In this document: in pieces, positions 6,323 through 7,067 of the stretch
Numbering within the stretch: the stretch's first letter is position 1
Layout of the letters: every line of letters begins with the position of its first letter
Notes under the pieces: generated by a model
What the model was told of the DNA's origin: nothing
The model's input: the letters and a program-made list of their open reading frames with translations, nothing else
Database searches by the model: none
Source of the DNA: Candidatus Cloacimonadota bacterium
GTDB taxonomy: Bacteria > Cloacimonadota > Cloacimonadia > Cloacimonadales > TCS61
DNA length: 7,067 bases
Direction: 5' to 3'
NCBI GenBank assembly: GCA_030445745.1
Contig: JASUTE010000037.1
Coordinates: 1 to 7,067, forward strand
Position numbers and translations under genes: made by a program

Positions 6323-6848
6323 GCAGGAATTAACTAGGTTTCCCCAAACCAGGTTACAGGACATTTACAAAGTATTTTATCAGGGCACTTTTGGCCCTGC
6401 GCATTTTGTTCGATCTCGTCAGAATGCCGAAACTGCAATTAAAAAAGAATTAGATAGTATTTTAGAGGTTAAGCAGACTAATATTTTCCATAATATTAGT
6501 TATATAGGTTGGTTTTATCGTGTAGATCTTAGTTATCTTAAACTTACTACTATGGATATCACAGAATTTAGCGATTTATTTTACAGGAGTAGTTTATTAG
6601 ATCCCCCTATTTCCTATAGTAACTGGAAACAGGAGTGGAAGAAAATTGTGGGAAAAATTGAAAATGATTTTGCTATTGTTAATATAAAAAAAGATAGAGA
6701 ATGGTTGCAGAGAAAGTTGGAAAAAGGCGAATACATTTGTTCTCACAGCGATATATTCCACAAAGAGTATCATCCACACTATCGTTTGATTTATGGTGGC
6801 TTTGTAAAAGAATTACAAACAAAAATAAAAAAAGCCTCAGTCAGATGA
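6288..6848 (+). CDS. Conserved-looking hypothetical protein, 186 aa
   Basis: I cannot name this product. It starts with GTG at 6288, the first possible start after an in-frame stop at 6282-6284; no later ATG, GTG or TTG precedes the first well-ordered segment. The protein is soluble with no signal peptide. Ordered segments are DIYKVFYQGTFGPAHFV (25-41), WFYRVDLSYLKL (75-86), a Trp-rich NWKQEWKKIVGKI (112-124) and a histidine- and tyrosine-rich end, HSDIFHKEYHPHYRLIYGG (153-171). The first and last resemble, from memory only, a widespread hypothetical family with a (D/Y)Y-K-L-x-x-Q-x-x-x-G-x-x-H core. The paired His clusters could bind metal or phosphate. It overlaps the radical SAM gene by 35 nt, so a shared pathway is likely. 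Its last five codons and stop lie in a terminator hairpin. Confidence 0.75.
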   Translation: MEYFSEPNRIIEQELTRFPQTRLQDIYKVFYQGTFGPAHFVRSRQNAETAIKKELDSILEVKQTNIFHNISYIGWFYRVDLSYLKLTTMDITEFSDLFYRSSLLDPPISYSNWKQEWKKIVGKIENDFAIVNIKKDREWLQRKLEKGEYICSHSDIFHKEYHPHYRLIYGGFVKELQTKIKKASVR

Positions 6849-6859
6849 CCGAGGCTTTT
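6830..6859. terminator. Bidirectional terminator between convergent genes
   Basis: AAAAGCCTC (6830-6838) pairs with GAGGCTTTT (6851-6859). An A/C mismatch and an inner GTC/GAC pair around AGAT complete the hairpin. Read on the minus strand the stem is followed by seven T, one A and five T, a strong terminator for the T9SS-cargo gene entering from the right. Read on the plus strand the tail is only four T, so it is weaker for the radical SAM operon. The hairpin overlaps the last codons and TGA (6846-6848) of the plus-strand hypothetical gene. Confidence 0.85.
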
Positions 6860-6890
6860 AAGTTATCTCAGATCCAGACTATTCCATCAA

Positions 6891-7007
6891 GACCTGTCCT
6901 GTGAAATTACGAAAGTACTATTTCATTAGGACCTGTCCTGTGAAATTACGAAAGAACTATTTCATCAGGACCTGTCCTGTGAAATTACGAAAGTACTATT
7001 TCATCAG
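6891..7007. repeat. Tandem array of three 39-bp hairpin-forming units
   Basis: Three head-to-tail 39-bp units start at 6891, 6930 and 6969. Only two substitutions separate them: C to T at 6927 in unit one and T to A at 6955 in unit two. A degenerate copy of the unit's last 12-13 bases (6878-6890) precedes the array. In plus-strand RNA each unit folds as GTCCTG, TGAAAT, TAC, loop GAAA, GTA, bulge CT, ATTTCA, bulge T, CAGGAC: 15 pairs and a GNRA tetraloop. Hairpins span 6896-6932, 6935-6971 and 6974-7010. The third covers the stop codon and last codons of the minus-strand T9SS gene. Units abut without spacers, so this is not a CRISPR. No other copy is seen in the window. Confidence 0.93.
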
Positions 7008-7067
7008 GATCATTTTCTTAGTAGAAGTATATCTACCAGCTTGCATTTTATAGAAATAAACGCCACT
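6996..7067 (-). CDS. 3' end of a secreted protein gene with T9SS type A C-terminal sorting signal (partial)
   Basis: The minus strand enters the right edge in an open frame of 23 codons and stops with TAG (6998 to 6996). The residues read SGVYFYKMQAGRY, then TSTKKM, then ILMK. This is the usual end of the Por/type IX C-terminal sorting domain: a GVYFY(R/K)(L/M)xAG strand, a basic (K)KM motif and a short hydrophobic-basic end. Proteins with this tail are exported by Sec, moved across the outer membrane by T9SS, and often anchored at the surface after the tail is cleaved. The cargo part lies beyond the window, so its function is unknown. The stop codon is inside the last unit of a 39-bp tandem repeat, and a terminator at 6859-6830 closes the message. 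Confidence 0.88.
   Translation of the reverse strand, partial: SGVYFYKMQAGRYTSTKKMILMK

Follow-up and report, generated by a model that had tools for sequence, protein, structure and literature searches.

Hairpin units at the coding end of a T9SS cargo gene in a Cloacimonadota bacterium: probable REP-like insertions at a single nucleotide

A short hairpin is repeated in tandem at the very point where a T9SS cargo gene ends, raising the question of what these units are, how they reached this position and how the gene has withstood them. Here, we describe the array in a window of 7,067 nt, the whole stretch of DNA analysed (contig JASUTE010000037.1), from a Cloacimonadota genome of 2.04 Mb in 38 contigs, together with its counterparts in relatives, the samples being draft metagenome-type assemblies. 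The array very probably consists of stacked REP-like miniature hairpins that were inserted into the cargo gene's final codons.

The array and the gene end

A tandem repeat search (TRF) of the window found a single array (6878-7009; period 39, 3.4 copies, 93% matches), which on the minus strand extends over three 39-bp units and a 14-nt partial copy (6879-7009). Unit 1, adjacent to the gene (6971..7009, minus strand), encodes (I)LMK-stop in its 5' arm and is followed on the same strand by unit 2 (6932..6970), unit 3 (6893..6931) and, after the three units, a stretch read as the displaced former gene end, TCTTGATGGAATAG (6879..6892). Joined to AAAATGA, TCTTGATGGAATAG gives K-M-I-L-M-E-stop, and so appears to be a slightly decayed native tail. 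The array lies between the stop codon of the cargo gene and an intrinsic terminator, predicted from sequence and common to convergent genes (6829..6862, no strand assigned; GCCTCRGTCA..TGACYGAGGC with T-runs on both sides).

With its TRF array and a fold much more stable than that of shuffles (z of -4.6 on the minus and -6.6 on the plus strand), the tandem 39-bp hairpin array of a preliminary description is real, as are the alternative folds that it proposed over unit borders, the within-unit and across-border helices being similar in energy (-9.5 vs -10.7 kcal/mol for this unit). The units abut without spacers, in agreement with its view that they are not a CRISPR, and the uniform loops within the array fit its suggestion of recent local amplification. 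The only Rfam match in the window above the gathering score was a tRNA at 1427-1500, and the array was assigned to no family. A terminator role for the array was ruled out, ordinary terminators lying further downstream; read-through of the stop (39 = 13 codons, ...YFRNFTGQVLMK) was ruled out as a general feature, unit length being 34-39 in relatives; and a serine-recombinase-like CAGGAC-AG-GTCCTG core was ruled out because the bulge puts the half-sites out of register and displaced gene end makes up the second half.

The unit has the form UCCUG-A-UGAAAU-AG-UCC-UUC-GGA-AUUUCA-CAGGA plus a 4-nt tail, with 14 bp and two bulges on the 5' side. In unit 1 of the window, UCCUG(A)UGAAAU pairs with AUUUCACAGGA, the inner stem is UAC/GUA and the tail is CAGG. 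The stem class YCC...GGR has one conserved 5'-side bulge, an unpaired column that sets a 12-nt 5' arm against an 11-nt 3' arm. Pairing is kept in 95.8% of cells, and double changes occur in 31 cells vs 6.3 in shuffles (0/500); at one locus (L181) the two arms fail to pair. The GAAA tetraloop described earlier is a complement-strand reading of this genome's version and is not conserved, the sense loop being UUUC here and mostly UUC in relatives. A UUCG tetraloop was dropped as a conserved motif, a 3-bp inner stem with a variable loop fitting better.

The cargo gene is cut by the contig end, and its last codons (7010..7067, minus strand) encode SGVYFYKMQAGRYTSTKKM(I) as far as AAAATGA^, the caret marking where the insertion took place. 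The last 60 bases of the window encode SGVYFYKMQAGRYTSTKKMI on the minus strand, after which the array opens with LMK-stop; the array thus overlaps the coding end and does not simply lie downstream of the gene, as in the preliminary description, since the first 5' arm holds the last codons and the stop. These 20 codons, without a gene body, give a weak TIGR04183 match (20 aa only) and recur unchanged as the terminus of a 728-aa TIGR04183 ORF on contig C10. Contigs C28, C34 and C10 break inside 90-99 bp of identical sequence, so that contig ends fall in the tails of such genes and the body of the array's cargo gene is ambiguous. Hairpin inserts explain a systematic break point in Cloacimonadota assemblies.

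Distribution and insertion at one nucleotide

The host genome, assigned to the Cloacimonadota by the nearest relatives of a neighbouring protein as well, has the TIGR04183 T9SS C-terminal domain (CTD) at 75 places, and 71 gene ends were extracted and read. The array stands at nine gene ends, all of CTD genes (~75), and nowhere else at array strength; the copies after other T9SS-tail genes that had been proposed as a check are thus present. Nine sites in the same genome and many other genomes argue against an assembly artefact. A DNA search found copies in 10/40 relatives, and a covariance model built from 48 units matched 23/40 genomes of the family and 29/124 of the phylum, all within two families. 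Nearly every strong match begins at AAR ATG A^TC CTG ATG AAA TAG, the K-M-I-L-M-K-stop of a CTD gene. The same codon start position recurs in related genera and in the second family, and a few copies lie off the exact site (L197, L195, L184).

The insertion point follows the ATGN of a coding end ...K-M-x-L-x-K-stop; within its first 11-14 nt the unit encodes (I)LMK, ILLK or ILLR anew, together with a stop, and the native end is displaced downstream, into the 3'-UTR. Under a strict rule (hairpin plus tail), inserts are present in 65/144 distinct CTD ends, with 4-nt tails of CAGG (34), TAAA (17) and CAAG (8). Rejoining the flanks of these 65 restores an in-frame MILMK-, MILLK-, MILIK- or MLLLK-stop in 60, with 34 different displaced 14-mers. 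At the same offsets, control ends without inserts give an in-frame tail in 11/1027, a figure that is if anything too high, the control set still holding some inserts missed by the strict rule. The displaced ends vary as native ends do (TGTTGTTGAAGTAA, TATTAATTAAATAA) and are unlike the insert's own arm, which rules out reading the second copy as a plain target duplication.

Unrelated inserts of 25 nt (TCCTCCTAAAATAATGGCGGACAAG) and 30 nt (TCCTCCTTCGCTAAAGCTTCGGAGGACACG) occupy the same nucleotide. Insertion is serial, type 1 preceding type 2 in L190-192 and the order being reversed in L201 and L230, and hairpins are nested in hairpins with sharp borders at five loci (L254, L255, L260, L196, L304; e.g. 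CCCCAGATAGTTATCGGGG-CAGG inside L254). Within one genome, G023, one 3' flank is found both with the 25-nt insert (contig C183) and empty (C146). Because varied inserts share one nucleotide, gene ends are displaced, hairpins are nested and one site is found both filled and empty, the reading of each unit as a hairpin inserted at one exact nucleotide, K-M-^I-L-M-K-stop, is well supported.

Generic hairpins with the same core are also abundant in several of these genomes and occur outside CTD genes as well, the pattern TGAAAT..ATTTCAYNGG giving up to ~99 matches per genome on both strands (27 in the host genome; 0-2 for a reversed-pattern control). One such hairpin (L322; G000 contig C9, 6747-6777) lies inside apparent in-frame coding sequence. 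Truncated CTD tails (RNLFSGELVLADKFVQTKKMILMK-stop) occur in G006 ~180 bp after full CTD ends (L168, L171, L178, L167), with a GTTTTCGGGAGAAC palindrome before them and the same hairpin after; they are scars of duplication or deletion. A palindrome resembling a terminator, AACCTTGCGGATGGTC..GACCTCCGCAATGGTTTTTTT, is repeated in the 3' flanks of L167, L171, L173 and L177 in that genome. In several genera, intergenic regions (L256, L221, L268, L257, L258, L259) contain a second nested palindrome that is conserved, GACTAACCCGGTGGAATAGTCCTACGGAATTCCACAGGTTAAAAAGTC, with the common core TGAAATAGTCCTTCGGAATTTCA. In family f13 (L310, L311, L312, L315, L318), a hairpin, TCCCTGTGAAATAAAAAAAAGATTTCACGGGACAGG, has entered a repeated GGAATATCCAA context, and immediately downstream lies an ORF reminiscent of four-helix-bundle (23S IVS) proteins. 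At L290, L296 and L300, RAYT-type genes have flanking repeats of their own (ACCTTGAAAGTGCTAA...CCTTTTCAAGGTT), which represent a separate REP-like population in these Cloacimonadota.

Origin, survival and alternative explanations

An insertion within the last five codons would be expected to destroy the C-terminal motif used in export, yet the inserts described here supply an equivalent C-terminal tail and stop, and the export tag is kept. T9SS translocation needs the last CTD residues, being abolished in PorU with its last six replaced, while an extension is tolerated (PMC11285876). Inserts that fail to rebuild the C-terminal motif would be lost, because export needs that motif. The insertion site would persist because the unit starts with TCCTG, like the sequence that it displaces, and further insertions or local tandem duplication at the re-created site could build arrays. 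The hairpin, bulge and tetranucleotide tail hint, at low confidence, that an HUH/Y1-type enzyme might move the units in the form of folded single-stranded DNA. The single-site pattern is most readily explained by the survival of inserts that mimic the tail, possibly alongside true targeting; the preference for this site could reflect targeting or survival, or in part conversion between homologous gene ends. A stronger proposal, in which a putative enzyme inserts at ATGN^TNYT, the arms have evolved to encode the secretion-signal tail and the cargo repertoire forms a never-exhausted safe harbour for a sequence-targeted mobile system, is conceivable, and we consider it doubtful.

Among the roles offered by the preliminary description were a mobile REP-like palindrome and a 3'-UTR stability or processing element or structured small RNA. 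The mobile palindrome fits the discrete insertions, the variety of insert types that use one nucleotide, the nesting and the empty site. A dedicated 3'-UTR stability element or a small RNA was not borne out, the array being at only nine of ~75 cargo genes and the hairpin being interrupted by inserts in several relatives. In a fuller form, a bistable hairpin over the stop would act in T9SS cargo mRNAs on stability, ribosome release or co-ordinated export. The conserved, covarying stem, the similar energies of the A:B and B:A' helices, the position between stop codon and terminator, and a sense-strand excess of G.U over A.C (23 to 5) are all in its favour; yet 17 of the 23 wobbles come from a single column, a single-stranded DNA element that folds would be just as likely to show G.T wobble and a conserved hairpin, and relatives have unrelated or nested inserts at the site. 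Taken together with the few genes concerned, this makes a functional RNA element decidedly improbable.

Somewhat less improbable, though still unlikely, is an origin without transposition, through short-tract gene conversion among the homologous 3' ends of CTD paralogues, with slippage enlarging the arrays. Conversion could contribute to the concentration of type-1 copies at CTD ends, and the likeness of units within one array, the identical bases common to C28, C34 and C10, and the truncated tails with the element in G006 would all be accommodated. It does not account for displaced ends and following 3' flanks that differ between genes directly after 38 bp, for the use of the same nucleotide by different insert types, or for unrelated hairpins that also carry insertions and have an empty site. 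We give very little credence to integron-like shuffling of cargo genes, in which the hairpin would serve as attC-like site at each cassette's 3' end: a folded site with a bulged base does stand at gene ends, and in G006 (C7, C33, C58) CTD genes follow one another in the same orientation, every one of them closed by the element, but cassette boundaries and circular forms were not seen at the loci, most elements end singleton genes with their own terminators after them, and displaced native ends imply that the hairpin was inserted, not the gene.

Read as insertions, the hairpins amount to selfish DNA made harmless through molecular mimicry, in that an insert of 25-39 bp in coding sequence brings suitable last codons and a stop. 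Such inserts recur across one gene family and across genera while the protein end stays equivalent, and they offer a natural, countable readout of the C-terminal residues that T9SS tolerates (ILMK, ILLK, ILLR). They also make REP-like targeting testable at single-nucleotide level.

Comparison with known systems

A literature search for such elements in Cloacimonadota or at T9SS gene ends found nothing relevant. The nearest likeness is to REPs and REPINs, imperfect palindromes of 20-40 nt near gene ends that have an unpaired bulge and, on one side, a tetranucleotide (PMC3733652, PMC8266576). The elements described here are multicopy short imperfect palindromes (hairpins of 36-39 nt) with an unpaired stem/loop irregularity, and their movement is indicated by the filled and empty pair in G023 and by nested inserts with exact boundaries. 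In E. coli, the REP bulge is needed for TnpA_REP activity (PMC8266576), and GTAG REPs often give a TAG stop to flanking ORFs (PMC3733652). In contrast to REPs, the tails here are CAGG, CAAG or TAAA (complement CCTG, CTTG or TTTA), not GTAG or CGTC; the element occupies a single, exact codon position within one family of genes, and its 5' arm encodes the protein's C-terminal motif. It also differs in having no linked dedicated RAYT (TnpA_REP, Y1 HUH). The CTD-type element flanked the Y1 gene in 0/20 Y1 loci read, most of which had other flanking repeats, and 2/20 had a generic TGAAAT..ATTTCA hairpin within ~200 bp; in G047 (86% complete), elements are present and a Y1 gene was not detected.

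Rickettsia palindromic elements (RPEs) and CGTC-tagged repeats are similar in being tagged palindromes able to lie inside ORFs. RPEs add an internal peptide, whereas the element here has another tag and re-ends the reading frame with the same tail. The CGTC super-family has been reported in Bacteroidetes and in Chlorobi and lacks a dedicated transposase (PMC3733652). As for T9SS itself, the host genes have the TIGR04183 export signal and a C-terminal K-x-x-x-K motif, but the element does not belong to the secretion machinery and most CTD genes here lack it.

Integrative elements that enter the 3' end of a gene and restore it, at att sites in tRNA or protein genes, are a further parallel, since here too an insert in the last bases of a gene supplies the lost end. 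The inserts described here differ in being 25-39 bp, gene-less and hairpin-shaped, with unrelated units accepting the same site; as hairpin insertions that displace native gene ends, the units are, as first suggested, not a known attachment site. The element is REP-like, REPs being the closest known kind, and is not a REP; its single-nucleotide address and its codon mimicry are new.
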